DNA of 64,000 nt from Aphrocallistes beatrix (lineage: Eukaryota > Porifera > Hexactinellida > Sceptrulophora > Aphrocallistidae): positions 1 through 64,000 of the forward strand of contig OY725489.1 in assembly GCA_963281255.1 (NCBI GenBank), given 5' to 3'. How positions within the stretch are numbered: position 1 is the stretch's first letter; every line of letters begins with the position of its first letter. The position numbers were made by a program, and so were the translations under genes. Positions 22,601 through 64,000 of this stretch are shown piece by piece. The notes below the pieces were generated by a model that worked only from the letters and a program-made list of their open reading frames with translations, was not told where the DNA came from and made no database searches.

Positions 22601-25600
22601 GAAGTTGGAGAAAATCAGGTCTCCAGAAGATAGGAGCGAGAGTGAGGAGGTGTTCGAGAGAGGCACAGCCGTCCCTTCTCGATACCAGCTGACCTCAGGG
22701 GGCGGGTCGCCCGTGAGGACACAGGGAAGAGAGAGTATCTGGCCCAGGAAGACCAGGTGAGACAGCGGTGGAGTCATGAATGTGTCGTCTATGGCTAGAA
22801 GAGACGGAATATAAGTGTGGAGGAAAGTGGCGGCATAACTAGAACTTACACGGAATGCGGAGTCTGAATTCGGAGTTGGTCACGGAGTCCTGCGTGCAGA
22901 CGTACCTCCCAGTCAGCATGCGGTTGAGAGAGTCTATTAATAGAACCGAGTGGGTGGGGAATGGGATCAGTGAGAGTCCGGAGGGGAGTGAGGAGGGAGA
23001 GAGAAGGATGGCCGACTTAAACCAGCTGATTTCCGCTCCCCGGCAGCTGAGATTGAGCGGCGTGCTTTCGTTTCTGTAAAGAGTGACAGGTGCTTGAGCA
23101 GCTGACACTGTCACCTCCACAGCTGATGAGGACGCGTTTCCTAGCAATTCATACGTAACATACAGCGTGGTAACAGATTAAGGTGATAGGAATGCTACCT
23201 TGAGAGTTCTCAGCTCGACATTGGTACTCTCCTGCCACTTCATTCGAGAGCACCGGCACGATCAGCTGATCTCCAGCTGACACCTGGGACCCATTCTGCC
23301 ACCAGGTCACAGGGGCAGGCGGCCAGGCGTCGGGCGCGCAAGAGAGAATGACCGACTCGCCGATTCTAACTTCGGTTGCTATGGTCTGAATCGGAATGCT
23401 AGCCTCGATAAACAACACCTGTATGATGACGTCACTGACGAGCTGAGTTCCGTTCGTTAGGTTCGCTGCGCACTGTAGAACAGAGCCATTCCTAGAGCGT
23501 GGAACTGTTGCTATGGTGTGGATAGCGATCAGCTGATTCGTTGAGTTAATCCTTTGATTCGTGACGTCAGCGCCTGTTGCTTCCCGCCAGAAAGGAATTC
23601 CTCCCTTGTCCAGGGAGCAGTTGAGAGTCAGCTGATCGCCAGCTGGCACCCTGGCTAGGTCAGGTCGTGACGTCACGCGGAGCGGTTGCGCGGAGATGAT
23701 AGTGGTTAGAAGGAATGTCGCTAGTAAGAGTAGTTCCATCTAATTCTAATAGTGAAACATTGGGATTATAACTTCTACATTTACAGTACATCTAATTATG
23801 TGGTTCTTATACGATATTATAAATACGATTCTATAGTAATGAGTTGTGTCGCTAGGTGGCAAGAAGCGCGTGACGTGGAAGCAGCGCTGGTTCGTGCTGC
23901 GGACGGACGTGCTGCTCTACTACGAGCACGACAGAGCCCTGGACAGCAGAGGCACGCTGGACCTGAAGGAGAGCCGCGGCCTGCGCAAGAGCTCGGAGAT
24001 AAAGACGATCAAGAACCTCCCCAAGACCGCCAATCAGGACTTGGTGTTCGGAATCGCCTCCAAGAAGAAAGTGTTCGTGGTCTGCGCGCCCGACGCGGAC
24101 GGCTACAGAGACTGGACCTGGGCGCTGCACACGGCCATCACGCAGGTGGGCGTGGCGCTAGTACCAGCAGCCGCGAAGTGACGCTTTTTTCTTTTGCAGA
24201 GCAACCCAGAGGTGGTGCAGCAGAGCTTGGGACAGTTCATCGGAAACCGAATGGACCCGTTCGCGTTCCTAGGAGACGACGACCTGGACGAGTCGGACTC
24301 CAGCTCCGGAGAGGACTGCTACGTCGCCACGAAGGAGAGCTCCAAGGACCTGGCGGCCATCCAGAAGAGCCGATCTCCGCAGGCTAAGCAGGCGTCGCGC
24401 GTGGCGAAGGGCTCCGAACCGGTGCGACTGGTGCAGACGCCCGACGGACTCCAGATGTCCTCTCCCAACCGCGCCCCAAACTCCAAGCTCTCCAAATCCA
24501 GCGCGGGATACGACACCAAGACCACTGCGCCTGCCTCCAAGTGAGTTGCCACAGCGGCCATTGTAACCCAGCCTTCACACCTCTCTGGCAGGTGGACGTC
24601 TCCGAAGTCCTCGCTGAGGGACAGATTCACCGCCACCACCGAGTGGCAGCAGGACACACATTCCGCCCCCACCACGCCCACCAACTCCCGCAGATTCATC
24701 GCCTCCGGCTTCGCCACGGTCGGACGTAGGCCGCTAGGAGAGAAGAAGGGTGAGTTGCATTCCTGCGTCGCTAGGGTAGTTACAGCTGATTACGAGTGTC
24801 TAGATCCCAAGCTGGCGATGAAGAGGGTGACGACGCCGCTGGGGAGAGTGCGGAGCTCGCTCTCCAAGCTCGCGCCCTCCAGCTCCATGACGGACCTGCG
24901 CAGCGCGGCGGAGTCCCCGCGTCCCTCCCTGAAGCGCTCCACCTCCGGGAACACCGCCGACGCGGAGGCCAGGGCGCGAGTGGCGGCGCAGGAGTGCGAG
25001 GACGAGGTGTCGCAGTTCCAGCGCCAGATCCAGCAGTTCCTAGGTACGCTCAACCCCTGAGCTCTCGAGCGGAGTTAAGCTGAGTGTTTTGTAGGGAAAA
25101 GAGTCGAGGTGGAGCACGACCTGACGCGCCTGGTGGACGACCCGAAGCTGCACCCGGACGGGTTCCAGCGGTTCAAAGGGCTGAGGGAGACCGTACGCGC
25201 GGTCCTGCAGAACCTGTACAAGGGACTGGTCACGGTGGCAGAGCCGCCCTACGTGCGGGAAGAGGCCGCGAGAGGTAAGACATAATCCGCGATCATAGAA
25301 CCGTGACTGAGGCTCTGTCAGTGCTAGGCAAGTTCCAGTTCACGCTCTACCAGATCCCGCACAACCCCAAGGCCCCGCAGCGGCCCGCCTCCTCCCTCAT
25401 GCTGCAGAACATGCGCGGGCGCGCGCTGGACTGGGACTGCCCGGACCCGCCGGCCGGCTGCTCGCTGCACTACTACCTGCAGATGCAGACGGAGGGCGGG
25501 CGGCGCGTGCTGGACATCATGACGGTCTTCCAGTGCGAGGTGTTCTGGGAGAACCTCCTGCGCGGCTGGGAGTCCAAGTTCTCTCTGCAGATCGAGACGG

Positions 25601-26222: not shown

Positions 26223-26229
26223 TATATAG
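26223..26229 (+). promoter_or_regulatory. TATA-like element for the GPCR gene
   Basis: TATATAG, 36 bp upstream of the ATG at 26259 and 86 bp after the PH-domain gene's stop codon. It supports an independent promoter inside a 121-bp intergenic space, with a leader of only a few nucleotides. An acceptor-like CTGCAG|AAGAATG directly before the start leaves a spliced leader as an alternative. Confidence 0.4.
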
Positions 26230-26258
26230 GGAGACGGGAGCTAGCATTCTGCAGAAGA

Positions 26259-27242
26259 ATGAGTTGCGTGTTCCCGAACAACACTGAGTACTGCACAGCC
26301 AATGAGGTGGCGAGGATAACCGTGGGCTGTGTGTCCGTCCTCTCCACCCTCTTCATCCTCTTCCTTATCTTCCTGTTCCGCAGGTACAACTTCCTGTCCC
26401 AGCGGCTCATCCTCTACCTGGTCATCGCGGCCTTCTTCGACAGCGTCGCCTACTCGCTGGGGGCGGTTGGGGGCCAGGAGGAGGGGCCCCTCTGCACCCT
26501 GGCGGGGTTCTATCTGTCGGTAACGGACTGGGCGGTCGTCGTGTGGGTGTGCAACATCACGGTCAACTTGTTCTGGAACGTGGTGGTGCTGCGGCCGTCC
26601 AACCTCTACCTGGAGGTGTTCTACGTCGTGGTGAGCGTCGTGGTGCCCGTTTTCTTCTCGCTTTTCCCCTTCATCGACAGCTCGTACGGCCCGGCCGGCC
26701 TCTGGTGCTGGATCAACAACGACAGGGAAGCGGGGAAGTATCTGCGATTCTTCGTCTGGTACATTCCGATCTGGCTGGTGACAGTCGGGCTGTTCGTCAT
26801 GTTCCTCATTATCATCGTCAAGTTGACTTGGGAGGTGCGAAGGTGGGACCCTTACAACCCGGAGTCGCAGAGGAAACGGGACTTGATTCGCCGCGAGATC
26901 AAGCCGCTCATCCTCTACCCATTCGCCTTCTTGCTCCTGAACATTTTCCCGACCATCAACCGAATACAAAACGCCATCGAGCCGGATAACCCGATCTTCG
27001 CGCTCTACCTCCTGCACGCGTTCACGTCGCCGCTGCTTGGGTTCGGCTGCACCATCATCTTCGTGGTGAACCGAGAGACGCTGAGCGAGCTGAAGTGGTC
27101 CAGCTTCAAGCAGACGCTGCTCACGAGGTTCAAGTCGAGGGGCGAAGTGGTGGAGATGGACGTGAGCAATGAGAAACCCAACATGGAGCACTCGGTGGAG
27201 ATTTCCAAGACGAACACCTATCAGGAATACCCGCGGCACTAG
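26259..27242 (+). CDS. Seven-transmembrane receptor, cAMP-receptor-like, 327 aa
   Basis: An intronless GPCR with seven hydrophobic segments: about residues 18-42 (VGCVSVLSTLFILFLIFLF), 51-72, 85-107, 114-140 (YVVVSVVVPVFFSLFPF), 163-190, 213-236 and 241-268. Conserved cysteines C82 and C144 (GLWCWINND) match the loop disulfide of the Dictyostelium cAMP-receptor/GPR157-like group. Other group features are WDPYNPESQRKRD in loop three and LILYPFAFLLLNIFPTINRI in helix six. The C-tail is short and Ser/Thr/Glu rich. In other organisms such receptors couple to G proteins; the ligand here is unknown. Assignment to the exact subfamily is by resemblance only. Confidence 0.85.
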   Translation: MSCVFPNNTEYCTANEVARITVGCVSVLSTLFILFLIFLFRRYNFLSQRLILYLVIAAFFDSVAYSLGAVGGQEEGPLCTLAGFYLSVTDWAVVVWVCNITVNLFWNVVVLRPSNLYLEVFYVVVSVVVPVFFSLFPFIDSSYGPAGLWCWINNDREAGKYLRFFVWYIPIWLVTVGLFVMFLIIIVKLTWEVRRWDPYNPESQRKRDLIRREIKPLILYPFAFLLLNIFPTINRIQNAIEPDNPIFALYLLHAFTSPLLGFGCTIIFVVNRETLSELKWSSFKQTLLTRFKSRGEVVEMDVSNEKPNMEHSVEISKTNTYQEYPRH

Positions 27243-42777: not shown

Positions 42778-43674
42778 TTAGGCGTAGGTGAGGAGCCGTG
42801 CGAGGTGTCTCCGGTACACCTCCTGCTCCTGGTTTATCTCCAGCATCTCCGCCGAGGAGCTGAGCCCCAGCGAGACGCACTCCTGGAAGAACTTGTTCCT
42901 GTCCTGCCCCAGCGAGAGGAAGGGCCGGGCGGGGTAGGATATCTCGTTCGCGTTGTAGGTGTAGGAGATGAACATGCAGACGAAGACGCTCTCCTTCACG
43001 TCCCGGATCGTGAGGAAGGTCTTGTCCTGTGCGTACCGTTCCATCAGCATGAACAGAAACACGATGTGCGACTCGCACACGAAGTTCTTGTTCGTCCACC
43101 GACAGTCCTGGAGGGACTTGTCCATGGCGATCACCCACTTGGCCACTTCGGGCGCCGTCGGCTTCAGGCACATTCCGGCGCACAGTTTCACGACGTAGCG
43201 CCCGAAGGCCTTCAGCAGGAGACCCACGTTGGACTTGTTCACGCGGGTGATTATGTTCATTTCCTGGTGGATCAGCTCCAGCTCGGTGGGCCGCGGCTTC
43301 GTGTCCGGCGGTTCCTCCGTGGGGGCCGGCACCACCGGCTTCTCCTGCTGCGCGAAGGACTGGGAGAGCGCCACAGGACACTTCTTCTGCGACTTCGAGT
43401 CCGTCCGTCCCTGCTTCAGCCCCAGCCGCGTGACGGCCACCGTGGCGAACTTCTTGATCCTGGCGTTCAGGTTCAGCTTGGAGGACGGCTGGGGGGCCGG
43501 CGCTGTGGTCCGGACGGAGTTGGAGCGCTGGGGGAGAGAGGACGGCTCGTAGAGGGGCCTGGCGTTCTGCAGCTTCTCGTACTGCTGCGCGAGGTGTCCC
43601 GTGGTGTTCGACTGAGGCAGCACTGTCTGCTCCTCGACAGTCGTGTTCACACTGACCGAGTGCGTGGATCCCAT
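42778..43674 (-). CDS. CDK5R1: CDK5 activator 1 (p35-like), 298 aa
   Basis: A regulatory subunit of cyclin-dependent kinase 5. Intronless, close to vertebrate p35 in size (307 aa). The N-terminal MGSTHSV fits the glycine-2 myristoylation pattern that anchors p35 to membranes. The C-terminal half has the p35 activation domain: TELELIHQEMNIITRVNKSN, KAFGRYVVKLC, the helix around DKSLQDCRWTNKNFVCESHI, and VFVCMFISYTYNANEISYP (p35: YFLSYSYMGNEISYP) followed by KFFQECVSLGLSSSAEMLEI. The middle is basic and Pro/Ser rich. A TATA box lies 67 bp upstream. The family is best known for neuronal roles, so finding it in a compact invertebrate genome is informative. Confidence 0.9.
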   Translation of the reverse strand: MGSTHSVSVNTTVEEQTVLPQSNTTGHLAQQYEKLQNARPLYEPSSLPQRSNSVRTTAPAPQPSSKLNLNARIKKFATVAVTRLGLKQGRTDSKSQKKCPVALSQSFAQQEKPVVPAPTEEPPDTKPRPTELELIHQEMNIITRVNKSNVGLLLKAFGRYVVKLCAGMCLKPTAPEVAKWVIAMDKSLQDCRWTNKNFVCESHIVFLFMLMERYAQDKTFLTIRDVKESVFVCMFISYTYNANEISYPARPFLSLGQDRNKFFQECVSLGLSSSAEMLEINQEQEVYRRHLARLLTYA

Positions 43675-43740
43675 TTGTATAGAAAGTATAATTTACGCTT
43701 GAGTGAATGCAAATGAATTACTAGACTGGCGGAATATTCC

Positions 43741-49842: not shown

Positions 49843-51254
49843 TGGATTACAAATAAACAAATAAAAATATTCAAATCTAAACTAGTAACAAAACTGAGTT
49901 GAAAACATATCACGCACAAGAACGGCTCAGTCGGATTATAAGTCAGTGCGAGCAGCGCCTAACAGACATTCCATTCACTTCCTTCCTTCGCCAGAACTGA
50001 ATCGAATTCACCCGAATAAATTCTGAAGCATTCAAAGATATAAAAGAATTTCTGAGCTAGGGTGAAAATACCAAAAGTTTTCGCAGCCATAACGAATAAA
50101 CTAACCAGTCTCTACACCAGCGGTTTTCAACCTTTTTGATTGTGGACCCCCTATATCAATTTTCCTATATTCTGTGGACCCCCTCCTATTAACCGTAATA
50201 ATTTCGAATCCTGTGGACCCCTGATATCTTCTGTGGACCACTAGGGGGTCCATGGACCCCAGGTTGGGAACCACTGCTCTACACCTAGCCGCCTCTTCGC
50301 AACTCATAATACGCGAAATCAAACACGTTTAATTTGAGAGTTTGTTAGATTTAGGGAATTTTATTATAAATAAATGAAACTTGAGAAATTTGGTTTAACT
50401 TTGAAGTCAATTGAGGGAGCATTATTGCCACTCATGGATATTGTCTAAGCCAGGGCGGAACATGGACCAGTGAGTCGGTGGTACAGCCGGAATATTTGAG
50501 TTCGAGGCCACGGATGTGCTAGCTATCACCGCCTGAAAGTTGCCATTCCTCCTGTCAGGATGATGCGGAGGCATTCAGAGGGAAAGGATGAGAATCTTCA
50601 AAAGTTTCAGGTTTCCTGCTAGCTTCACAACAGATGCAGGAATATCGGATTCCCGCATCTGTTGAGAAGCACAGTGGAAGATGATACTATGGCATCTGAA
50701 TGAGACTCATGATGTAACATAGTTTCAGTGATCAGGTAACCAAATTACTGAATAATCATCAGAAACGAGGCAAGAAGTTTCCTTTTTAAATTTGGGCTAA
50801 TAATTATGCAAATGTTGAACAATGTATCAAATGTAGAGCTAAGGAATGCAAATAATTGCCTGAAGTGTTTGCTATAGAGTCGGGTGCTCGTTTGAGGTGG
50901 GAGTCGAATAGATTGCACACCGCGCATTAAATATATTCGCTCCTTGAAAGACGATTAGAACACAGAACTGAGTTCAGTATTGCGGTTAGATAAATTGAAC
51001 TTATCTGTCTGGACATAACTTGGATATTTGCAATCAGACAGTTCGTCAGTCTGTCGGCACTCCCACAAACCGACACAGAAATAGTTCAGTAAAGAACTCC
51101 GCCCGCTTATCAGTTCTGAAAGATTAGTTAGGAAAGTTCATAAAATTGCCACCTCATTACTATATACACTTTTGTTAAATAAGAAAATAAAAGCACAATA
51201 AAATGCAATTAATTTACAGAATAAAACGCTCTGATGGAGGATAGGCCAGAGGAG
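49843..51254. other. Spacer between cyclin A and the phosphatase array
   Basis: No gene supported. It contains the hAT element at 50118-50276. The remainder is AT-rich, with a partly repeated phrase (GATGCAGGAATATCGGATTC and its partial inverse around 50630-50665). Confidence 0.5.
50118..50276. mobile_element. Non-autonomous hAT element (159 bp), family 1
   Basis: It begins CAGCGGTTTTCAACCTTTTT and ends GGTTGGGAACCACTG, with a perfect 8-bp target duplication CTCTACAC on both sides (50110-50117 and 50277-50284). Its interior closely matches the copy at 37660-37822, including TGTGGACCCC repeats. The perfect duplication suggests a recent insertion. Confidence 0.92.
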
Positions 51255-54200
51255 CTATAGGGAGGAGATGCAGGGGTAGGCACCCTCAGTGGGAGTTTGC
51301 GGATCGTCGTAGCTCGTTCCTTGCAGATATGAGTTTATGATTGTGTGTACGGAGATGTATTGATCCTACAGAACAAGCATAAATATAAACAAGCATGAGA
51401 ATGGATCGGATTTCACTGTTGTGTTACAACATAACATTTGCTCGTTGCAATGTTTTGATTGAGTCTCTCAGAGTTGTTGCAATTAAGCTTTGTAACAAGG
51501 ACTCCCACGAACACAGATGTTGCAGCTCTTCTGCAGTCTTATTCAGTGTTAGTTCGAATCACTGTAATTACTTATCAAAAGAATTTGCAATCAAATATTA
51601 CCGCACATTACGAAGTTGCAACTACATTGGCGCACTGGAATGCTGTGGTATTCAGTAGGAGAGTGAATGCGTGTTTAATTAATTAATTAATAATATCCAG
51701 AATCATTGCTCGACCTAGCAACAGTATTTGCTCAATGGAATTCCACACCACACTTACCAAGCTGTTGACCATGGAAGGTCTGCAGTAGCGCATGCGCTTA
51801 ATGCTCTGGAAAACGTCCACACTCTGCTCCTCCTTGATCTGGCAGACGGAGTTGTACGCGGAGATCATCACTCCTGAAGCCCCGGCGCCGTCCGCGCACT
51901 GAAGAATGACTTTGCGGTTTTTCTGCTGCAGACACTGCTCCATCTCTTGCAGCACCGTGATCAGCCTCTGCATGCTCTCAGGGGACACTTTGAACTGGCC
52001 CCCTTCCGTCCAATCCAGCAGCGTCACCAGTCTGAACTCCACCTCTGACTCGTCCGCGTTGCAGACCAGCTTCATCCTGTTGATGAGCGGGTGCTCCTGC
52101 TGGTTCTCGTTCATCAGGTTGAACCCGTCGAACTCGTGCTGCGTCATCGGCTCGGGCCAGTAGCGGATGCGGCCCTCGTCGTACTTCATCTCCTCGAACT
52201 CCTCCCGGCTGGCGAGCAGCAGGACGACCGGGGCTTCCGTCTGGAAGATGAGCTGCATCAAGTCGCGGACGGACTCGGAGACCGGGAGCTGCGTGGCGAT
52301 GAAGCTGCTGTCTCCGTAGTAGTCCTCCACGTGGCTAGCGTTGATGTAGCGGGAGCCGTTCCAGTGCCGGCCGGACAGCTCCACCCCGCAGTCGTCGTAC
52401 GGAAGCACCATCTCGCACGGGTTAATCGCTAGCGCGTCCAGCGCGCGGAAGTTCGCTCGCGTGTAGGCCTTCTCCGTCTGGAACTCCAGCTCTGCGAACT
52501 GCAGCTCGAACAGGCCGGACTCCACCTCGCAGCGGGACTGGAAGAAAATGGGGAAGTTGCTCGCGGGTACGGACGTGTCTCCCTGCAGCAGCTCCAGCAC
52601 GGCGAGGTAGATGAACCGGTACTGAGGGAACGCCTGTACCAACAGCGGCCTGTGCTCGCGTATCTCGTTCACGATGTTGAACACGCTAATGCTGCGCCCT
52701 GCATGGATTGCCTCTGACAGGTTGACCAAGGTGATGAAGGTGCCACTCCGGCCTACTCCTGCGCTACAGTGCACGCACACGGGAGATGGGGACTTCACTG
52801 CCTCGAGCTTAACCTTCTGCATGAACCGGATCAGGTCCTGCGGGAACCGGGGGGCGTCAAAGTCCGGCCAACCTACGAACTGGAAGTGTCGCACCAGCAG
52901 CTTTTCTGTCCCTGCATTGTCAGACACTGTCATCTCCCGGCACACCCACAGCTTATCCTGCTGCAGACCTACGAGGGTGACGAAAAGCGCGCCGTATCGC
53001 TCCCCGTCCCCAACTCTCTCCGGCCAGTACTGCTCGCACTTCTTCTTCTGCCCCTCCACCACCTTGGTGAGCATCACGACGGTGCAGATCTTCTCCTGCC
53101 ACAGCATGCGCCACATGTCCTCCACCGTCTCCTTCCTCGGGCCCTGCGAGGAGATGAACTCCTGCTTCACGTGGATCCCGGGGACCAGGGACGCGTTGAT
53201 GTAGTCCGACGTAGGTTCGTTCGGGATGGAATCGAGCACCACACGGGACCGGTCGTACGGCAGAATGTTCCGGTACCGGTTCTTTTCCTTCACGGCGGGA
53301 TTGGTGGCCTTGTTTGTCGGGTATCGGTACTCACTCCCGCCTAATGCGTTGTACTCCTCAGCCAAGAGGTTGTTCTCTTTCTGCCACAGCAGCTCCACCC
53401 GCGCCTTGAAATCCTCCTGCGATATTTCTTCTGAGAAGATGCCCCCCGCAGGATCAGGGGCACCGTGGGGCACAGGCTCATAAGGGGGCGGGACTGGGAC
53501 TGGGGACTTAGTCTTAGAGACCACGGGGTTGATCTCCTCATCCGTGGGGATTGATTTCGTGTATTTCCCAGAGCTTCTCCTCCTGATGCAAGTGACACAC
53601 AAGCACCACACAACTATCACAACCACGATCACGGCGAGAATTATGATGGCCAACAGACCCAAAAGGATAGGAATCAGCCAGCTGGTGTTGACTACAGGAA
53701 GTGGGGCGCTAGATGGTACAGGGGTGTTAGATGGTACAGGGGAGCTAGATGGTACAGGGGTGCTAGATGGTACAGGGGTGCTAGACGGTACAGGGGAGCT
53801 AGATGGTACAGGAGTTCTAGAGGAGACTGAAGCACTGGAGGAAGGGGCAATTATGTCTTCAGATGTTGCAGCTGATTCTGATGCACTGCTACTAACGGTG
53901 TCATCTGTGGCAGAAGTAGTGGCAGGGATGGAGAGAGAGAAATCGGAGGGAGTCGGTGTGGGCATAGGGGGAGTGGAGGTGTGAAGTGTCGAGGTGTCTG
54001 TAGCAGGTACAGAACTGGAACTAGGTGTAGAGACTACAGTGGACGTACTTAGTGAGGGGGTAGGGGTAGGGGGGTAGGAGGACGGTAGAGGTGTCACTAC
54101 GGGGGAGGAAGACAAGGATGGGGTCGAAGCAACAGGAGTGGAGACAATGGGAGCGGGAGTGGAAGATAACATCACATTCTGAACTGTATTAGAAGAGGAC

Positions 54201-55499
54201 TGTTCCTGCTGGAGACTCGACGAAGGAATGGATTCGGAACTGAAAATAGAAATGGAACTGGAACTAAGAATGGAATTAGAAGTAGGAATGGAGCTAGATA
54301 TAGGAATGGAGGTGGAACTAGTCATGCTCTCTGTTACAGAAGGAGAAGAGATGACAGAGGAAGAAGGTGTTAGAGGAGGCATAGTTTCACTCGGATCTAG
54401 TTCACCCACTCCTCCAACACTCGTTTCTGGAATAACCGTCAGATCTAAATCAATCCTGAACACGACCATATTTTCTAACACTCTGCGACAAGAATATGTT
54501 CCATTGTCTTGTGACGTCACTGAAGGAATGGTGATGACAGGAAATGAAGATGACGTGTCTCCATTTGGAAGTATCCATCTCCCATCTCCTGTGTTAACAC
54601 TGCAAGTTAGAACTAAGTTAGCTGTGTTTTGTTCCACTTTCAGTGCTGTATTGTTTGTGTATTCTCCGTCTCTTAGTACACTTCCTTCCACGCTGATATG
54701 TCCGCCTTCTACAATCAAACACAGCTGTAACTATCACATTCTTTAATAGCATTAAATAACATTGATCAATATTTACCTTTTATATCTAATAATATTGATC
54801 CGACATAGGAATTCGTTATAACACCTTTCCTGATGCATAAGAGCTGATGCTCTCCTGTACTCTTCTCTTTCTGGTAGAACTTATATATATTCATTGGATT
54901 AGAATATATAGAAAGATTATAATTCCATTCCTTCTCTGTATTGTCGTTAGGATCTAAGCAGTTGTATTTTCTGTTGTAAGGATCTACGTCCAGTATGTAT
55001 GTGAAGTCCACTGTTGTACTGGATGTGACATCGATATTCACTAAACAAATACATTACATTCACAATATGTTCATTATTCTATCTATTTGGTATACATTCA
55101 CACCATCTTAATTAATAGATGTCTTAAGATCTTAAGAGGTGAAGGAGGGTCGAAAAATCTATTAATTCCAATTCAGGATTCTACATCCGAATTGAAATAC
55201 TCAGCTTCTCTTCGTGTATCAAATCTACACCACAAAGCACTGCAGTGATTGTGCCGGTCACAAATGGCACAAATTAGCACACTTTGACCTCGAGAATAAT
55301 TAAGTAGGAATTTGAATAGTTACAATGCTAATTTGAAATAAAAATGCAATTTCTGTTAGAATTGAATGCAATTCTAGTTTGTCAGTGTTCAGGTAAATCC
55401 TAGCTTTGAACTGTGCGACTTACCTGTTCTACACATCTCCGTCAAGAAGATTAACACGCAAACAGAGACGTACAGGTGCTGTCTGATCCTCAGTTCCAT
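51255..55499 (-). CDS. Receptor tyrosine phosphatase A (Ig-mucin-TM-PTP-PTP), 1133 aa
   Basis: Four exons: 55499-55424 (signal peptide, MELRIRQHLYVSVCVLIFLT), 55040-54777, 54708-51758, 51365-51255; phases close. Two Ig-like domains (about residues 26-205; Cys pairs in YNCLDPND...LLCIRKG and LTCSVNTG...YSCRRV) are followed by a 240-residue Ser/Thr/Pro stalk, partly an SSTPVP tandem repeat. The transmembrane helix is near 455-480. D1 is canonical: KNRYRNILPYD, DYINASLV, WPD loop GWPDFDAP and P-loop HCSAGVGRSG (Cys near 760). D2 keeps the fold, but its P-loop is QCADGAGASG, without the essential arginine, and it lacks WPD; it is predicted inactive. The last exon encodes a 36-aa tail with several tyrosines. 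First of a head-to-tail array; a TATA box lies 83 bp upstream. Confidence 0.92.
53700..53815. repeat. 18-bp repeat in the RPTP-A stalk
   Basis: Six to seven copies of GGTGCTAGATGGTACAGG (variants GGAGCTAGA, GGTGTTAGA, CTAGACGG) encode SSTPVP/SSSPVP on the minus strand, part of the extracellular mucin-like stalk. Confidence 0.9.
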
Positions 55500-55581
55500 T
55501 CAATGATATAATTGCTATAATTGCTAATTAAAATACTTGAAACCATACAATGCATAAGATATTGTAATGCAGATTGCAGCA

Positions 55582-55589
55582 TATTTATA
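55582..55589 (-). promoter_or_regulatory. TATA box of RPTP A
   Basis: TATAAATA on the minus strand (AGTATAAATATGC), 83 bp upstream of the start at 55499 and inside the 195-bp gap after the RPTP B stop codon. Confidence 0.55.
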
Positions 55590-55693
55590 CTGCTGCGAGA
55601 GCCTATATATACACAGACATAGAGTCGGGAGAGAATTTAATTGCAACTGCATCATAAAATATTAAAACAAGTCCAATCTACATTCCAGAGACA

Positions 55694-58600
55694 CTAGCTG
55701 TTGCCACTCAGGTTCTCGTAGGTGTTAGGGGAGAGATGGAGGTGCAGCACTGCGTGTAGCGACTGGTACTGCTCCTAGAGTTGAGGTTAATATTAACTCA
55801 GTTCTGTCCAATCAACATTATTGCAACTACCCACTAGCTCTAGACTGCAGCTGAAACGGCACTGAATGCTGCTAACAATGTAACTTAGCATTAGGAATGT
55901 CGAGGTTAATCTTTGGGATAATTATTAACGAATGCAACTCACCAAGTTATGTACAAGATTGGGTCTGCAGTATCTGAGGCTCTTCACCGTCTGGAACACG
56001 TCCACTCTCTGCTCCTGCGTGGCCTGCGTGATAGCGTTGTACAGCGAGATGAGGACGCCTGTCTTCCCGGCTCCGTCCCTGCACTGCACGACGATGGGCA
56101 GAGTGGGGAAGTTCGCCTTAACACTAATCATCTCGTTCACGATGCCTATCACGCTCGCCTTGTCCAGCACGCCCCCCTCCGGGCCCCAGTGCAGGGAGAT
56201 GATCAGGTTGAACCGGTGCTGCTTCTCGTCGCTCGTGTCTATCAGCACGAACTCCATTATATCCCTCTGGACCATGGACATGTTCTTGAGGACAAACCCT
56301 TCGAATTCGTGTTGCGTGTTCGGCTCGGGCCAGTAGACGATGCGTCCGTGCTCGTACCCCATCTCCGAGTACTCCTCCTGGCTGGCGAGCACCACCACCA
56401 GCGGACACTCCGTCTGGAAAATCAGCTTCACTGTCCCGCGGGCGGAGTACGCGTTAGGGTGCTGAGTAGCGATTAGGTCCTGGTACCCTTGGAACCCGTC
56501 GACATAGCTGGCGTTTATGTACTCCCCCACGCCCCACTGCCCCTCTGACAACATGGGCCGGTAGTCGTCGTAAGGGAGCACGGAGGGGTCCGGGTTCAGG
56601 GTCGCGTGCCTTGCGCTGGAAGCTTCGGAGTTCGAGCGAGCGAAGGACTTCTCACAATAGTAGTCGATCTCTTCCAGCTGCTTCGCCAAGATGGTGGGGC
56701 CGCCTTCCACGCACTTGTTGTAGTAGTGCGTGTAGCTGGCGATTGGGACGGCCGTGTCTCCGTGAATCAGCTCGAGACAGGACAGGTAGATGAACTTGTA
56801 CTGCGTGAAGGTCTGCACCATGTGTGGTCTGTGTTCCCGCATCTCGTTCACGACCCAGAAGATGGAGATGGGTCTGCAGGCCCGTATCTCCTCCATCAGG
56901 TTGTACAGCGCGATGAACGCGCCCGTACGTCCGACGCCTGCGCTGCAGTGGCAGCAAATGAGGCTGCTTTCCGCATTCGTTTCTCGCTTCACTTTCTTGA
57001 TGAAGCTGATCAGCCCGTGCGGATGCCGTGGCGCCTCATGGTCCGGCCAACCCGAGAAGTGGAAGTGTCGAATGCTCAGTTCCGTCGTGACGTCACGTCC
57101 CGTCTTCACGGCGAGCAGTCTCGTGGTCTGGTTGAACTCAGAGGACATCTGCACGAGAGTTATGTAGATGTCTGCCACTGCTATCGTCTCCCCAACGCGC
57201 TCAGGGAAATATGGCTCACACTTCTTCTTGTTCCCTTCCATCACGCGGGTCAGCATCACCACGTTTGACACCTTATGCTGCCACAACATTTCCCAGAACT
57301 CCAACATGGTTTCCTTCTTGGGCGCTTGGCATGCAATAAACGTTTCCTGCACAGCAAAGCCTGGGATGTAGGAGGCGTTCACGTAGTCCGTGGTGTTGGC
57401 GTGCAGCTCAAGGGGGACGCGGGACTTGTCGTAGGGGTAGATGTTCTTGTACCGATTCTTCCCGTTGGTGATGTGCTCCCTGGCGGCCTCCGTGGCGTAC
57501 CTCAGCTCGCTCAGACCCAGCGCGTTGTACTCGGAGTTCAGTAGAATGCAGTCGCCCTCCCACAGCTTGTCCGCGTAGGACTTGAAGCTGCTGAGGGGGA
57601 TGGGCCGCGAGTGCACACTGTCCTCGTTGAAGGAGGTGCTCAGAGGTTCGTAGTGTCTGCCGGACATGGGCAGGAACTGTCGAGGGGACAACATGGCCTC
57701 TAGCCCAACTGGGCCGTTCCTCTCAGTGTCGTCCGTCTGTTGGAGGTACTTGCTGCTCTTGAACTCCGTGTAGTGTCTCCACAGACACACCACCAGGGCG
57801 GCCCCTGCTAGCAGCAGGACCAGCAGGATCATCCCCACGATGGAGAAGCCGATGGCGATCGTGTCTGGGCCTGCTTGTCTTATTGGCGTGGCAGTCATGT
57901 TGCGTGTAGTGTTTGAGGAGATTGAGGTCTCAGTTGTAGGATGTGAACTACCGGGTACAATGCCTATGTTTGTTGTTGTAGATGTAGATATAAGGAATGG
58001 TGTAGTAGGAGTTGTTGTAGCTATTGATGATGATGATGTAATTGTTGTGGGAGTTGTAGTAGGTGTTGTGGGAGTTGTAGTAGGTGTTGTGGGAGTTGTT
58101 GTGGGAGTTGTTGTGGGAGTTGTTGTAGGAGTTGTGGGAGTTGTGGGAGTTGTTGTGGGAGTTGTGGGAGTTGTTGTGGGAGTTGTGGGAGTTGTTGTGG
58201 GAGTTGTTGTGGGTGTTGTTGTTGCAATTGTTGTAGGAGTTATTGTAGTATTTGTTGCTGTTGTCGTTGTTGTCGTTGTTGCTGTTGTTGAAGATACTGT
58301 ATTGGTAGATAATGTAGTTGGTTGTGTTGGTGTCGTTGTTGTTATGTTCACCTCTGCTATTAACAATATAATATAACAACTACAATAATTTACAGTTAAA
58401 TTTAGTGCTAAATAATGTACCTCCTATTTCTACGCTTATTTGTAGAACTAAAAATGGGGTGGATATAGTAGTAGATCTAAGACAGCTGTATATCCCCTTT
58501 CCCAATGAACTAGTCAGCTGAGGTAGAGATATGGAAGGATTCTTTGTAGGAGGTATGGTTCCAATCGGAGTGAGGAGAACTCCTCTACTGACTTCACAAG

Positions 58601-59139
58601 TAAATATGATGTTCTCAGTGTTGAGAGGAATAGATATAGTGTGAAATAGACTATCACTTCTGGCAAATGATTGAACAGCTCCAGAATATGTCACATTAAA
58701 CAAGGCATCATCTAGAGAAAATTCTCACTAAATAAACTAACAGCACATAGACTCATATTCTCACCTTTCAGAGTTAGATTCATTTCTCCTATCTTCCCAC
58801 TGCTAGAGTGGCATTCCACTGTATAGTCTGTGAGTTCATTATTCCGTCCATAGAACTGATACGCATTCAAGAGACTCCCTTCATCCGCTCCGTCATACTT
58901 CCAGGTCAGACCGTTAGAACTCCCGCTACTGACACACCTGTACTCCAACCCCTCACTGTCTCTACCAGCCACGTACTGGAACGAAGTCTGACCAGAACTC
59001 ACATCCACGTCAACCACAGGATCTGTCAGGGAATTAGAGTCACAGCCTCGCTACACACACTGACTTAACACCTACCTGCTCCACACACCAGCACTTGGAG
59101 ACTGAGCAGAGAGAAGAGGAAGGTTAGAACTCGATTCAT
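55694..59139 (-). CDS. Receptor tyrosine phosphatase B (Ig-mucin-TM-PTP-PTP), 1035 aa
   Basis: Five exons: 59139-59076, 59022-58765, 58711-58421, 58356-55943, 55774-55694; phases close. Signal peptide NRVLTFLFSLLSLQVLVCGA; Ig-like 1 (YRCVSSGSSNGLTW...TVECHSSSG) and Ig-like 2 (FTCEVSRG...YSCLRS); a PTTTPT-rich stalk; a transmembrane helix near residues 370-397 (IVGMILLVLLLAGAALVV). D1 is intact: KNRYKNIYPYD, DYVNASYI, GWPDHEAP and HCSAGVGRTG (Cys about 675). D2's P-loop is QCRDGAGKTG: the catalytic Cys is present but Lys replaces the invariant Arg, reminiscent of the inactive CD45 D2 (CRDGSQQTG). The terminal exon ends NTYENLSGNS, with a YxN motif of the Grb2-SH2 type as in RPTP-alpha. Ectodomain exons 1-2 are identical in sequence to those of RPTP C. 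Confidence 0.93.
58030..58340. repeat. Thr/Pro stalk repeat of RPTP B
   Basis: GTTGTGGGAGTTGTTGTGGG-type 9- to 12-bp repeats encode PTTTPTTPTTT on the minus strand. They are the mucin-like stalk, and also the source of the Val/Gly-rich plus-strand open frames. Confidence 0.93.
58741..59118. repeat. 378-bp block identical to 62502-62879 (copy 1)
   Basis: Compared line by line with 62502-62879, I see no difference over 378 bp. The block covers most of exon 1, intron 1, exon 2 and the start of intron 2 of RPTP B. Homology continues into exon 3 at roughly 95%, then fades in the stalk. Upstream, identity stops abruptly in the signal-peptide codons. Confidence 0.93.
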
Positions 59140-59227
59140 GAGATTCCAGTCTCTGTAGCTGTGCAGAATAGAATTGTAAAATGACTTAAGCCTGCTGTAT
59201 ATTCAGCATACATTACTGCAGCTATGG

Positions 59228-59235
59228 CTTATATA
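59228..59235 (-). promoter_or_regulatory. TATA-like box of RPTP B
   Basis: TATATAAG on the minus strand (CTTATATAAGCC), about 90 bp upstream of the start codon at 59139, in the 228-bp gap between RPTP C and RPTP B. Confidence 0.45.
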
Positions 59236-59367
59236 AGATATCCTAATTGCTTTAGATTCAAACCAAAGACTTTCTAGGCATTCACATATTAATCTCATTA
59301 CGCATGCCACATAATACATTCTCGCAGGGTTAACACAGTCAAACACTTCAGTTAGCATTCCACCTGT

Positions 59368-62300
59368 TCACGTGGAGATGTTCTGGTAGGTCGCAATCTG
59401 TCTGTACTCCGAGATGAGCTGGTAGCAGTGAGCATACTGCGCCTAAACACACAGAAAAGATAAACTCAGCCTATTCGGATCAGTTTCATTCAGACCACAA
59501 TTGCTTAAGCAACTAATTCAGTGGGATTAGATAATGCAATTTACAAGTCTGGCTCTTGTTGCAACACTATACTCCAGAACTAGCAAACTAATCAACTGCC
59601 TCAACATTATCACAGTGCACTCTATCACTACTAATTCAACATTGTTATGTCGCTCCACTTCTATTGTTACAGAGTTGTACTTAGAGATTGCATTGATTGG
59701 TTAAACAATGGAATAGTTGCACAGTGGTATTCTCACCTTACTGCACACCATGCGGCGTCTCTGTGTCCTGGCGCTCTTGACTAACTGCACAAGATTGACT
59801 CCTCCACCTCTCCTCATCATACTCACAGCACAGCACAGCACTATGAACACTCCCGTCTTCCCCACAGCATCGGAACAGTGCACCACGACAGGTCCGGTAT
59901 TCTGGTTCGTGACCTGTTCTGCTAGCTTTACGACCGGTAGCAAGTGCGAGGGGGTGCCGGTATCCTCCCACTCCATCAGGAGGTAGTGGGTCAGTGGGCG
60001 GGATTGCGACACAGAACTGTCGCTCAGTGTCAGCGTCTGCTTGATCAGATTTCCGATTCTCTCCGAGCTCACCGTCTCGACTGAGAACCGGTCTATCTCG
60101 GTCCGCAGTCCTTGCTCCGGCCAGTAGCAGGAGGAGGAAGAGGCGCCGGACACCATGTCCTCCCAGCCCCTCGCCGTCTCCAGCGCCACCACCGTAGTGG
60201 CTCCGCTCTGCCACAGCGTCTGCAGGAATGCGGCCGAGGTGTGGCTGTGCGGGTTTAGCGTTGCAATGAACTGAGTTTTCACACCTCTGATGCTGACATA
60301 GGACGCATTGACGTAGTCTCCCTTGTGCCAGCTGTCTGCCTCCAGCACCACCCTGTTCCTGTCGTAAGGGAGAGAAGCGCTGTGTGTGTTCTTGGATTGG
60401 TTTTCTGGTCGAATCGCGTCCGATACAAGCGCCAATGAACCCAGTGAATCCAGGAATTCCAGATACGAGAATTCTTCTTCTATCCTAGCAACCGTAGCCT
60501 CACTATCAGGATAGGAATGCGACATTTTCACACCTCTGTCTCCTAGACACATCTCCAGGAGACACAGGTATGCGAACCTGTACTGCTCCACCGTCTGCAC
60601 CATGTAGGCCCTATGCTCCCTCATGGTCCTCACAATCTCAGACAGGTACACGTGCACCCCAGACTCCAGCAGCTTCATAGCTGTGTACAGCAAGACGAAC
60701 ACTCCAGTCCTGCCGACCCCAGAGGTGCACACGACACAGATAGGAGTGTTTGTGTTGTGTCGCTCCTTCACACCTCTCAGCATCTCAACCATCCCGCTAG
60801 TGTCCTCGGGTACTGTGCCATCTCTCCACCCTGTGTAGTGGAACTGAGTTATGGTGGAGGTGTTACCTGATTGGGTGACAACGAACTCCCTCCTAAACCA
60901 CTCCCCTTCACACACCTCTTCTCCTAGCTGGATTTCTACCCCTGACACCTCCATGCTACGATCCTGACGCTCTGGCCAGTACAGTTCACACCTCCTCCGT
61001 CCATTCTCCACCGGATCTGCCAGCTGCACCACACAGCTGACATTGTACTGCAGTAGCATGTGCCACATGTCTGCCACTGTGTCCGCTAGAGGCCCCTGGG
61101 TGGCTATGAACACGTTGGGTTCTTGTCTTATGGGTACAAAGGACGCGTTGATATATTCACAAGCACCACTCAATGCTACTCTTGTGTGGTCGTAAGGGAG
61201 GATGTCCTGGTATCTATTTTTGGCAGCATTCCTAGGTAGACGGGCGGTATCCACGGAATGTGTAGATGTGTGAGGAATTGATTCAAACTCTCTTTTCAGT
61301 TTCAAATCTTTGTCAGCTGTTAAACTCTCAATTTCAGACTTCAAAAGAGTGAACGAATTGCTGGCATCAATAATCTCATAGTATCCTCCCTGATCTGCTC
61401 CCACTCCCTGATACGTGTCTAGCTCATAGTAGAGTCCTGTCTGTGCTGCTGGGACTGATTCTAGCTTATTAGAGGGGTCAGTAGTGAGTCTAGTGTGGAG
61501 GTGTCGCTTCTTCCGTTTGAGATATATCATCACACAGATGAGTGAGATGAGGATAACTGAGGCTATACAGAAAATACTTAGAATCACTACAACGATAGTT
61601 ATGAGTGTAGGCGTGGATATGCTGGTGTGAGTAGCTGTGGAGTTTGAGGATATTATTGGAGTATTAGTTTCTGTTGACATTCCATTTGGTTTAGGACCTG
61701 AGGATGCGGATTCAGATGTAACCTCTCGTGTTGTTGTTTTAGATCTGGTTGAAATAGTTGTAGACTCTGACATAGGCTCTGTCATAGTTGTTGCTGTAGG
61801 AATTGTCATAGTTGTTGCTGTAGGAATTGTCGTAGGAGTTGTTGTGGGAGTTGTGGGAGTTGTGGGAGTTGTGGGAGTTGTTGTTGGAGTTGTGGGAGTT
61901 GTTGGAGTTGTGGGAGTTGTTGTTGGAGTTGTGGGAGTTGTTGGAGTTGTGGGAGTTGTTGTGGGAGTTGTGGGAGTTGTTGTTGGAGTTGTGGGAGTTG
62001 TTGTTGTTGCTATTGTTGTTGTAGGAGTTATTGTAGTATTTGTTATTGCTGTTGTTGGAGATACTGTATTGGTAGAGAATGTAGTTGGTTGTGTTGTTGG
62101 TGTCGTTGTTTGTATGTTCACCTCCGCTATTAGCAATATAATATAACATAAAAATTTTACAGTTAAACTTACTGCTAAATAATGTACCTCCTATTTCTAC
62201 GCTTGTTTGTAGAACTAAGAATGGGGTGGATATAGATCTAAGACAGCTGTATATCCCCATTCCCAATGAACGAGTCAGCTGAGGTAGAGATATGGAAGGA

Positions 62301-62906
62301 TTCTTTGTAGGAGGTATGGTCCTAATCGGAGTGTTAAGAACTCCTCTACTGACTTCACAAGTAAATACGATGTTCTCAGTGTTGAGAGGAATAGATATAG
62401 TGTGAAGTAGACCATCACTTCTGGCAAATGATTGAACAGCTCCAGAATATGTCACATTAAACAAGGCATCATCTAGAGAAAATTCTCTATAAATAAACTT
62501 ACAGCACATAGACTCATATTCTCACCTTTCAGAGTTAGATTCATTTCTCCTATCTTCCCACTGCTAGAGTGGCATTCCACTGTATAGTCTGTGAGTTCAT
62601 TATTCCGTCCATAGAACTGATACGCATTCAAGAGACTCCCTTCATCCGCTCCGTCATACTTCCAGGTCAGACCGTTAGAACTCCCGCTACTGACACACCT
62701 GTACTCCAACCCCTCACTGTCTCTACCAGCCACGTACTGGAACGAAGTCTGACCAGAACTCACATCCACGTCAACCACAGGATCTGTCAGGGAATTAGAG
62801 TCACAGCCTCGCTACACACACTGACTTAACACCTACCTGCTCCACACACCAGCACTTGGAGACTGAGCAGAGAGAAGAGAGAGACACTGACTGATCTGTA
62901 ATACAT
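59368..62906 (-). CDS. Receptor tyrosine phosphatase C (Ig-mucin-TM-PTP-PTP), 1025 aa
   Basis: Five exons: 62906-62837, 62783-62526, 62472-62188, 62126-59737, 59442-59368; phases close. Signal peptide MYYRSVSVSLFSLLSLQVLV, whose second half is shared with RPTP B. Ig-like domain 1 is identical to that of B and domain 2 is nearly so; a PTTTPT stalk follows; transmembrane helix IVVVILSIFCIASVILISL. D1 has KNRYQDILPYD, EYINASFV and P-loop VCTSGVGRTG with Cys and Arg, but the WPD loop is GWRDGTVP (Pro lost, Asp kept) and the usual His before Cys is Val. D2 reads HCSDAVGKTG with Lys for Arg, so it is probably inactive. The terminal exon ends IATYQNIST, again a YxN motif. The intracellular half is far more divergent from B than the ectodomain is. 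Confidence 0.92.
61820..62110. repeat. Thr/Pro stalk repeat of RPTP C
   Basis: GTTGTGGGAGTTGTTGTTGG-like short repeats encode PTTPTTTPTT on the minus strand. They are similar to, but arranged differently from, the RPTP B stalk. Confidence 0.92.
62502..62879. repeat. 378-bp block identical to 58741-59118 (copy 2)
   Basis: Partner of the block at 58741-59118, at an offset of 3761 bp, in RPTP C. It includes intron sequence, which selection on protein could not keep identical. Confidence 0.93.
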
Positions 62907-63072
62907 CAGTGAAGATTCTAGTTATATCCTATTCGGTATAAGAATTAGTACAGTTACGACATTTGAAAGCATAAAAATTATAAGAACCGCAAAGTTATAA
63001 TAGAAAATTTAGCTATTATGCTGATTGATGATAATCTTTGAATATAATAAATGCCTTCAACCATGAGATTAA

Positions 63073-63127
63073 GGATATGCTCATTTGCAGATCTTCGGCA
63101 AATTTGAATCTGCAAATGAGCATATCC
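63073..63127. repeat. Perfect 20-bp inverted repeat
   Basis: GGATATGCTCATTTGCAGAT (63073-63092) and its exact inverse at 63108-63127 flank a 15-nt spacer. The spacer phrase ATCTTCGGCAAATTTGA recurs as a direct copy at about 63133-63149. Non-coding, upstream of RPTP C. Confidence 0.9.
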
Positions 63128-63309
63128 AGCATATCTTCGGCAAATTTGAAAAGTTTTTACATGTCAATTAAACAAATTTAAATTTTAGGAATAAACATAC
63201 GCACTTTTCAACACTCGTTAAAATAAAAAATTACAACTTAACTCTAAAAAATTCAATTATTCAAAACAAAATACTAAATAAATGAATGAATTCCAGCTAT
63301 CACAACAAC

Positions 63310-63612
63310 GAGTGGTGTTTTGGGGGGGGGGCGCTGCCCCCCTACTTTTTTCGCTCGGGGGGGCTCGGGGGGCGCTGCCCCCACACTTTTTTCGCTTGGA
63401 GGGCGCTCCTTACCTCATGCTAACTACTATTTTAATTTTAGCCTTATAATGTATTACGTAGCATAACAAATTCAAATCAATTGTTGCCATTTAAACTAAC
63501 CATATTCTTTTTCTCTTTCTTATTATCACCATTTCTATACCAACGAAAAAACATATAACTTTTTTACGGGAAGGAAGCGCCCCCCACTTCTATTTTTGGC
63601 AAAACACCGCTG
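63310..63612. mobile_element. hAT-type MITE (303 bp) with G-rich interior
   Basis: The ends GAGTGGTGTTTTG and CAAAACACCGCTG are inverse copies with two differences. Perfect 8-bp direct repeats ACAACAAC (63302-63309 and 63613-63620) flank it, as expected for hAT insertion. The left interior has long G-runs and two GGGGGGCGCTGCCCCC-like blocks each followed by TTTTTTCGCT. The right interior is AT-rich with a GCGCCCCCC block. No coding capacity. Lies between the RPTP D fragment and RPTP C. Confidence 0.72.
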
Positions 63613-63645
63613 ACAACAACCCTATACATCATGTCAGTGTGTCAG

Positions 63646-63830
63646 CTACAAGTTCATCTGACAGAACTCGTTGAGGAGAGAGTAGCAGGAGAGGTAGTGC
63701 TCCTAGAGGACTCAGCATAACACTGCACTACAAGGCTATAAATAGACTCACACTGAACTCACGATAGAGGGAACCATGCGTCTCCTGGCGTTCCTCAGCT
63801 CCTTCACAGTCTGGAACACGTCCACACTCC
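63646..63830 (-). pseudogene. 3' end of a fourth RPTP gene (truncated copy)
   Basis: Two pieces match the last exons of the array genes. About 63826-63763 reads SVDVFQTVKELRNARRRMVP then SI before a donor (ATC|GTGAGT), equivalent to VDVFQTVKSLRYCRPNLV at the end of D2. Then 63702-63646, after acceptor CCTCTAG, encodes EHYLSCYSLLNEFCQMNL and a stop, in the same phase as the terminal exons of A, B and C. Upstream of SVDVFQ, homology stops at an acceptor-like TTTTGGTCAG, and the DNA to the window edge is non-coding on this strand. It is therefore either a 5'-truncated relic or a gene with an extra intron whose remainder lies beyond 64000. The YxN tail motif is absent. Confidence 0.7.
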
Positions 63831-64000
63831 CTGACCAAAACGAATACTTCGAGATGTATCAGAATATTCACATTTCGTGTCCTACGTCACTCAATGGAGC
63901 TGCACTATCAGTCCGTCGACGTACATTTTTCATGATTTTATTCGTATTTCAAGTAATTCTATAAATACTCTATATACGCATTCTTAATTGGTCAATCGCT
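63831..64000. other. Non-coding edge sequence
   Basis: No open frame continuing the phosphatase homology is seen on the minus strand. The 62-aa plus-strand frame at 63776-63964 is antisense to the RPTP D fragment and not credible. Confidence 0.5.

Follow-up and report, generated by a model that had tools for sequence, protein, structure and literature searches.

Receptor tyrosine phosphatase genes of the glass sponge Aphrocallistes beatrix that combine similar ectodomains with intact or altered phosphatase halves

The window analysed here, all 64,000 bp of it, is the start (bases 1-64000) of contig OY725489.1 of Aphrocallistes beatrix, hereafter C2, a contig of 7.6 Mb in an assembly of 100.5 Mb and 28 contigs. 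Toward its far end lie three receptor protein tyrosine phosphatase (PTP) genes, g1, g2 and g3, in tandem on the minus strand, whose GT-AG introns give stop-free splice models of 1133, 1035 and 1025 aa and in each of which PF00102 matches two stretches (D1 and the distal D2) at E 1.8e-106 or better. These models bear out an earlier, sequence-only reading of three complete receptor PTP genes in one orientation. That reading also took a 'fourth 3' end' for the end of a fourth gene; it is instead a 98.2% copy of the 3' end of g5, with one terminal peptide common to 63702 (the orphan fragment) and 68397 (g5), and g4 has its own last exon at 64335. The features are as follows (Ig, immunoglobulin-like).

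51255..55499, minus strand: g1; exons 55424-55499 (signal peptide), 54777-55040, 51758-54708 (Ig, stalk, membrane helix, D1, D2) and 51255-51365 (last D2 helix, tail); D1 motif-intact (KNRY/WPD/HCSAGVGRSG)
53612..53668, minus strand: g1 membrane helix, by hydropathy (mean 3.69)
55694..59139, minus strand: g2; exons 59076-59139, 58765-59022 (Ig1), 58421-58711 (Ig2), 55943-58356 (stalk, membrane helix, D1, D2) and 55694-55774 (tail with YENL); D1 motif-intact (WPD/HCSAGVGRTG)
57785..57841, minus strand: g2 membrane helix, by hydropathy (mean 3.03 over 19 residues)
59368..62906, minus strand: g3; exons 62837-62906, 62526-62783 (Ig1), 62188-62472 (Ig2), 59737-62126 (stalk, membrane helix, D1, D2) and 59368-59442 (tail with YQNI); D1 atypical (WRD, VCTSGVGRTG)
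61546..61602, minus strand: g3 membrane helix, by hydropathy (mean 3.19)
58765..59075, minus strand: Ig1 exon and intron 1 of g2, identical over 258 + 53 bases to 62526..62836 (minus strand) of g3
63613..63834, minus strand: orphan 3' fragment of g5 type (D2 end and terminal exon), 98.2% identical to 68308-68529

The last exon encodes the final D2 helix and a tail, which contains TYENL in g2 and TYQNI in g3. Structure models predict an Ig domain for Ig2 of g2 (exon 3) and a beta sandwich of uncertain class for Ig1 (exon 2).

A PF00102 search of the assembly gave 155 matches at E 0.001 or better, counted per exon, the best of which are the ones listed. For the family itself we grew a profile from g1-g3 and ran it on C2 to 90000 and on stretches of contig C15, whose array was examined in part, and of other contigs, setting the other PTPs of the genome apart from the count. 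In the DNA so examined the family comprises 38 genes with PTP domains: nine on C2 (g1-g9), 23 on C15 at 65-276 kb with one more at C15:775 kb, and single genes on C1, C3, C10, C11 and C16. Genes beyond g1-g9 are named here by contig or by position (102374 and 105276, for example, lie on C15). A credible terminal exon was recognised by pattern in only nine of the 38. Ectodomains on C2 consist of Ig-like exons and mucin stalks, with Ig-like and fibronectin type III (FN3)-like modules in g5-g7 by eye, and those on C15 of runs of Ig-like exons; C-type lectin domains occur in two of the C15 stretches tested (E 5.9e-13 and 1.1e-16), and one tested stretch matches FN3 at E 0.0012, short of the Pfam cut-off. 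In a D1 tree made without the 14 single-domain genes described below and two partial domains of other PTPs, the 24 array D1 fall on one side of a branch and nine other PTPs plus three human anchors on the other (support 90/92, not starred, in a bootstrap that has not settled, with g8 and g9 as long branches). The lineage-specific expansion proposed from the window thus gains from following the DNA past 64000, where the array reaches nine genes, from the second array of 23 and from the tree grouping; as seen within this one genome, it is supported as far as it is testable.

We classed genes as intact or non-intact by the state of the active-site motifs of D1 (KNRY, WPD, HCX5R), that is by sequence motifs alone, tolerating KNKY, KNRF and the HCSTGVGR of C10 in the intact class. 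D1 is motif-intact in 15 of the 38 genes (g1, g2, g5, C10 and 11 on C15). The 23 non-intact genes divide into nine with two domains and 14 with one. The altered D1 of the former reads WRD and VCTSGVGRTG in g3 and the C1 gene, and CCVTGSGRTG in g4, g6 and g7 (with WPE in g6 and g7); the P-loop Cys is missing from g8 and replaced by Ser in g9, and the P-loop Arg is changed to Gly in C16 and to Pro in C15:265557. In the 14 single-domain genes WNED, WNDD or WEED occupies the position of WPD, and the P-loop Arg is replaced by Lys. Their one domain is D2-like (mean identity 35-43% to 15 intact-class D2 versus 20-27% to 15 intact D1), and we therefore regard them as lacking D1. The linker from helix to domain is also longer, at 213-249 aa in 13 single-domain genes versus 108-178 aa in 15 intact genes. 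In two-domain genes the WPD motif of D2 is absent in 24 of 24 and the P-loop Arg is retained in three (265557, 269593 and 274386), so that the distal domain is predicted to be inactive by motif. Open frames of 520-689 aa run through 13 of the 14 single-domain genes; the other, C15:166425-168306, has its frame in two parts (333 and 329 aa) and may be a pseudogene or contain an intron.

The two classes are not confined to separate ectodomains. Genes g2 and g3 share 90.6% DNA identity over 1126 bp of ectodomain with no blastn match in the cytoplasmic part: beyond the identical Ig1 exon and intron 1 (a tract that in g3 is also 98.4% identical to the corresponding stretch of g4), identity falls to 94-96% through intron 2 and exon 3, to 89% in intron 3 and to 74% in the stalk, and from the membrane helix onward a forced alignment gives 42-51%, the D1 proteins having 39% of residues in common. 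Similarly, g6 matches g5 over 2539 bp of ectodomain (83.2%) with no cytoplasmic match, and matches g4 in the cytoplasmic part (88% over 2042 bp), making it a g5-type ectodomain on a g4-type cytoplasm. On C15 the dead gene 102374 and the intact 105276 are 87.3% identical over 2751 bp, introns included, with a cytoplasmic match of 187 bp; the C11 ectodomain matches that of 105276 over 1208 bp (88.2%, cytoplasm 0), 147772 that of 115328 over 1512 bp (81.2%, cytoplasm 191 bp), and 242040 that of 258352 over 3603 bp (77.5%, cytoplasm 86 bp). Under a strict cut of at least 900 bp at 75% identity with less than 250 bp of cytoplasmic match, 11 of the 23 non-intact genes have an intact partner. A 1621-bp match between 65906 and 77020 was set aside as probably due to intergenic repeats; with the ectodomain capped at 4 kb, the best intact partner matches over 637 bp at 73%.

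Tandem arrays containing tracts of 98-100% identity are, as is generally known, hard to assemble, and repeats that were collapsed or mis-joined could in principle yield chimeras of this kind. We consider such an artefact extremely unlikely: the shared ectodomains of the named pairs differ overall by some 10-25%, as expected of separate loci rather than of one sequence placed twice, and members are also found on C10, C11, C1, C3 and C16.

Since the pairwise ectodomain strings had been stopped at the helix, we placed the joint from uncut genes and same-class controls. Membrane-side alignment was obtained in 11 of 13 class-crossing pairs, its end falling no further than 188 nt upstream or 81 nt downstream of the helix start, whereas in all three same-class control pairs homology carries on and stops at most 40 nt short of where the cytoplasmic frame ends. 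Trees of 11 Ig-type and nine FN3-type genes, out of the 38, agree with this arrangement: D2 protein trees split intact from dead with 100/100 support in both sets, and ectodomain DNA trees mix the classes and reject a single dead clade (p 1.9e-48 for the Ig-type and 0.039 for the FN3-type set). In six live/non-live pairs, synonymous divergence (dS) is 0.30-0.84 in pre-membrane modules and 2.6 or more, or saturated, in D2. At the level of sequence, then, ectodomain DNA is shared across the classes with the cytoplasm shared little or not at all, and the switch falls near the membrane helix. The sequence-only reading had emphasised variable stalks; stalks do differ, and the stronger pattern is the reverse, common ectodomains with swapped cytoplasmic halves. 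Several class-crossing pairs share an ancestor, so that independent swaps are fewer than pairs; in our judgement there are at least four distinct combinations (the FN3-type dead genes, 242040, the 223332 group and C2).

One alternative is that the family simply expanded in tandem through unequal crossing-over and gene conversion, leaving these chimeras as by-products and the shared ectodomains without paired function, and duplicated blocks across gene ends, the orphan at 63613-63834 and the 311-nt tract identical in g2 and g3 are traces that such a history would be expected to leave. It accounts less well for homology that stops near the helix in class-crossing pairs and runs through in same-class pairs, or for class-crossing joints in several ectodomain/cytoplasm combinations on both C2 and C15. 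Nor does recombination in introns explain the joint, because a single open frame runs from the stalk or FN3/Ig module through the helix into the PTP part. Selection, discussed next, bears on it in both directions, and overall we hold this alternative to be unlikely, at perhaps the level of a serious minority view.

The D2-like domains of the dead genes show ratios of nonsynonymous to synonymous divergence (dN/dS) of 0.14-0.17 in all seven dead-dead pairs, lower than those of intact D1 (0.18-0.45 in six intact pairs). To judge from these substitution rates the dead domains are under purifying selection and hence the dead genes are not decaying. The view that the non-intact genes are pseudogenes in decay can point to the lost P-loop Cys of g8, the Ser for Cys in g9, the split frame of 166425 and the one orphan fragment in the window; set against the open frames of nearly all single-domain genes and the dN/dS values, on which decay of the dead genes was rejected, we find it very improbable. 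Maintenance of dead domains by selection also tells against chimeras as mere by-products, and the lack of positive selection by module average is in keeping with them: the highest module value, 1.00, comes from the pre-membrane segments of g4/g6, which are non-homologous, and pervasive positive selection on ectodomains was not seen in module-average dN/dS. In pairs among g4, g6 and g7, dS is 0.04-0.12 across D1-D2 versus 0.34-0.69 in the linker, a contrast that would fit homogenisation of the phosphatase part.

The linkers of 13 single-domain genes are rich in tyrosine motifs compared with shuffled sequence: 45 versus 23.4 for Yxx[ILV], 24 versus 9.5 for YxN and 17 versus 6.4 for [VILS]xYxx[ILV]. 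The last is observed nine times versus 4.9 (p 0.05) in the 15 intact genes and four times versus 2.2 (p 0.16) in seven others; Yxx[ILV] and YxN exceed shuffles in linkers of both classes. These counts leave out C1, 166425 and g8, where the helix is unclear. Potential readers of such motifs exist, in that the genome has 62 SH2 matches, two of which adjoin a PTP at C8:160.2-163.2 kb in an SHP-like layout.

In overall build the family resembles the classical receptor PTPs (PTPRS/LAR, PTPRA/E, CD45), with a signal peptide, an ectodomain of Ig/FN3 type, one helix, tandem PF00102 domains, a D1 with KNRY-type, WPD and HCSxGxGR motifs in 15 sponge genes, and a degenerate D2. Unlike them, it is large and clustered, has ectodomains common to intact and dead members, includes C-type lectin modules and contains 14 genes without D1. 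The sequence-only reading had likened the ectodomain style to CD45, a kinship that finds no support: against solved structures the cytoplasmic part of g1, the gene searched, scores 386.6 bits for PTPRS, 382.4 for PTPRA, 368.6 for LAR and 281.2 for CD45, with PTPRE also among the best and above CD45. Orthology to CD45 was rejected on these scores, and the likeness in mucin stalk and degenerate D2 is of a general kind. It may be that the family comprises developmental or adhesion receptors (for matrix, tissue contact or skeleton), many by chance, that recognise neither self/non-self nor microbes. LAR and PTPRS are among the best solved relatives of g1, and vertebrate type IIa and IIb receptor PTPs function in adhesion and guidance. 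The copy number, clusters toward contig ends, C-type lectin mosaics and live/dead pairing are unlike the few adhesion receptor PTPs of vertebrates, and we think this explanation improbable, about on a par with the tandem-expansion alternative.

Joining one ectodomain to live and to dead cytoplasmic parts is an arrangement familiar chiefly from immune receptors of vertebrates. Vertebrate paired receptors have clustered genes and tyrosine motifs. Those of the KIR, LILR, PIR, SIRP, CD94/NKG2 and NKR-P1 groups are described as having very similar extracellular regions and different cytoplasmic signalling (PMC3533184). The sponge family is alike in its Ig-like and C-type-lectin-like members, near-identical ectodomains, differing cytoplasm, clustered genes and tyrosine motifs; it is unlike in that its arms are phosphatase domains, live or dead, that kinship of the ectodomains is shown only as far as the Ig fold, and that any opposition in signalling would be a reading of motif states. 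For a role of dead domains there are precedents: in work on PTPRK, a D2 reportedly can recruit substrates. The human receptor PTPRU has two pseudophosphatase domains, its D1 being without detectable activity, and binds substrates of its active relatives, with competition proposed (PMC7320164); it is a single human gene, whereas the sponge has 23 genes of the non-intact class, of which 14 lack D1 and many share ectodomains with intact ones. Among invertebrates, the Fester/FcoR genes of the Botryllus fuhc locus are clustered Ig receptors with different tails bearing an immunoreceptor tyrosine-based inhibitory motif (ITIM), a hemITAM (half of the corresponding activating motif, ITAM) or core tyrosine motifs, for which an allorecognition role is proposed from experiments; the available portion of that source names no phosphatase domains (PMC12065747), unlike the sponge family, which carries them and is known from genes alone. 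The same portion places most known paired receptors of ITIM/ITAM logic in vertebrates and notes that tunicates and cnidarians have been proposed to hold parallels (PMC12065747). In the glass sponge Aphrocallistes vastus a lineage-specific tandem cluster of AIG1 genes in a compact genome has been suggested to have an immune role (PMC10282587); AIG1 is a protein family unrelated to the receptor PTPs. This cluster was the only result of our literature search for recognition genes of glass sponges. The word phosphatase is absent from the main texts of the A. vastus (PMC10282587) and O. minuta (PMC10280926) genome papers, and our search, through result listings that cover few subscription journals, found no paper on sponge receptor tyrosine phosphatase arrays.

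We favour, at a probability of roughly 60%, a modular receptor family that expanded in this glass sponge and is organised like paired receptors, with phosphatases and pseudophosphatases in place of the usual arms. Recombination within and between clustered genes would place one set of Ig/FN3/lectin ectodomains on several kinds of cytoplasmic half: a membrane-proximal D1 that is intact, with a dead D2; a D1 with altered motifs; or, where D1 is lacking, a dead D2-like domain behind a linker rich in SH2-type tyrosine motifs. One ligand could then be read by live and dead receptors alike, intact receptors removing phosphate from tyrosine motifs and dead ones holding or presenting phosphotyrosine docking sites, or competing for substrate. 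The response may be set by the live/dead balance on shared ligands, an idea we prefer because of selection on the dead domains, the linker motifs, the SH2 domains, a receptor on C1 with a tyrosine-motif tail and no PTP match (described below), and the PTPRU and PTPRK precedents. With less confidence, we suppose the ligands to be self or non-self surface molecules. The recognition or immune role suggested from the window draws on layout, and the paired-receptor layout would make it likelier than clustering alone does.

Several results weigh against this organisation. Pairing is not universal, as 12 of the 23 non-intact genes fail the strict cut, and for 74630, C16, g8, g9 and C3 there is no intact ectodomain match in the DNA examined, though with only 646-1249 bp of ectodomain side searched in four of them. 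Pairs 183574/232800 and 160123/258352 align only in patches whose ends lie 441-566 nt ahead of the helix, so we did not score them as joints, and the FN3-type tree test is weak. No module averages a dN/dS above 1, and these averages give no hint of a pervasive arms race. Motif density is similar or higher in intact genes (Yxx[ILV] 2.11 versus 1.47 per 100 aa), so that eraser and docking site do not map neatly onto the two arms. Finally, g3, g4, g6 and g7 retain the P-loop Cys and Arg and may be weakly active, and C10 was scored intact on HCSTGVGR; motif states are not assays.

Elsewhere in the assembly, a third array (C15:3872823-3990446) lies near the other end of C15. Compared with one query, 26 of its Ig modules show 78-99% identity and four show 40-50%, and PF00102 is absent there from the matches listed. 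At C1:12123620-12124732 there is a receptor that combines the family's Ig modules and a helix with a short tail bearing YTNL, YATI and YSNL, and that has no PTP match. The C2 array lies within 90 kb of the contig end, where 63 copies of a 116-bp repeat (99% match) fill positions 1-7355 of the window. Other features of the window are a single-frame G-protein-coupled receptor of the slime-mould cAMP receptor type at 26223-27242 on the plus strand (Dicty_CAR, E 6.5e-13), a p35-like CDK5 activator at 42778-43692 on the minus strand (E 1.1e-26), Ig-domain receptor-like frames with a kinase-like cytoplasmic part at 20738-23739 on the minus strand (by eye), and inverted ends at 50120-50280 that by eye resemble a small hAT-type transposon remnant. 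Contig C28 (17,996 bp) is mitochondrial: cox1 has 14 TGA, 16 AGA and 42 ATA codons where, by eye, Trp, Ser and Ile are expected, with an atp9-like frame upstream of it. Glass-sponge mitochondrial DNA combines TGA for Trp, AGR for Ser and ATA for Ile with the presence of atp9, and the code and gene content of C28 point to a glass sponge (Hexactinellida).

It is tempting to go further and see here an independently evolved recognition system of sponges, built as paired receptors. Inhibition would come from the phosphatase that the receptor itself carries, a pseudophosphatase or docking tail would form the opposing arm, and recombination close to the helix would renew the live/dead pairs; in a syncytial animal, such a system may act in fusion control or defence. 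We put this forward tentatively, as somewhat short of an even chance. If true, paired-receptor logic would have arisen in an early-branching animal from different parts, with the phosphatase itself, live or dead, as the switchable arm. The family would also supply a series, made by nature, in which pseudophosphatase receptors can be set beside active partners, and its members would be candidate recognition genes in glass sponges.

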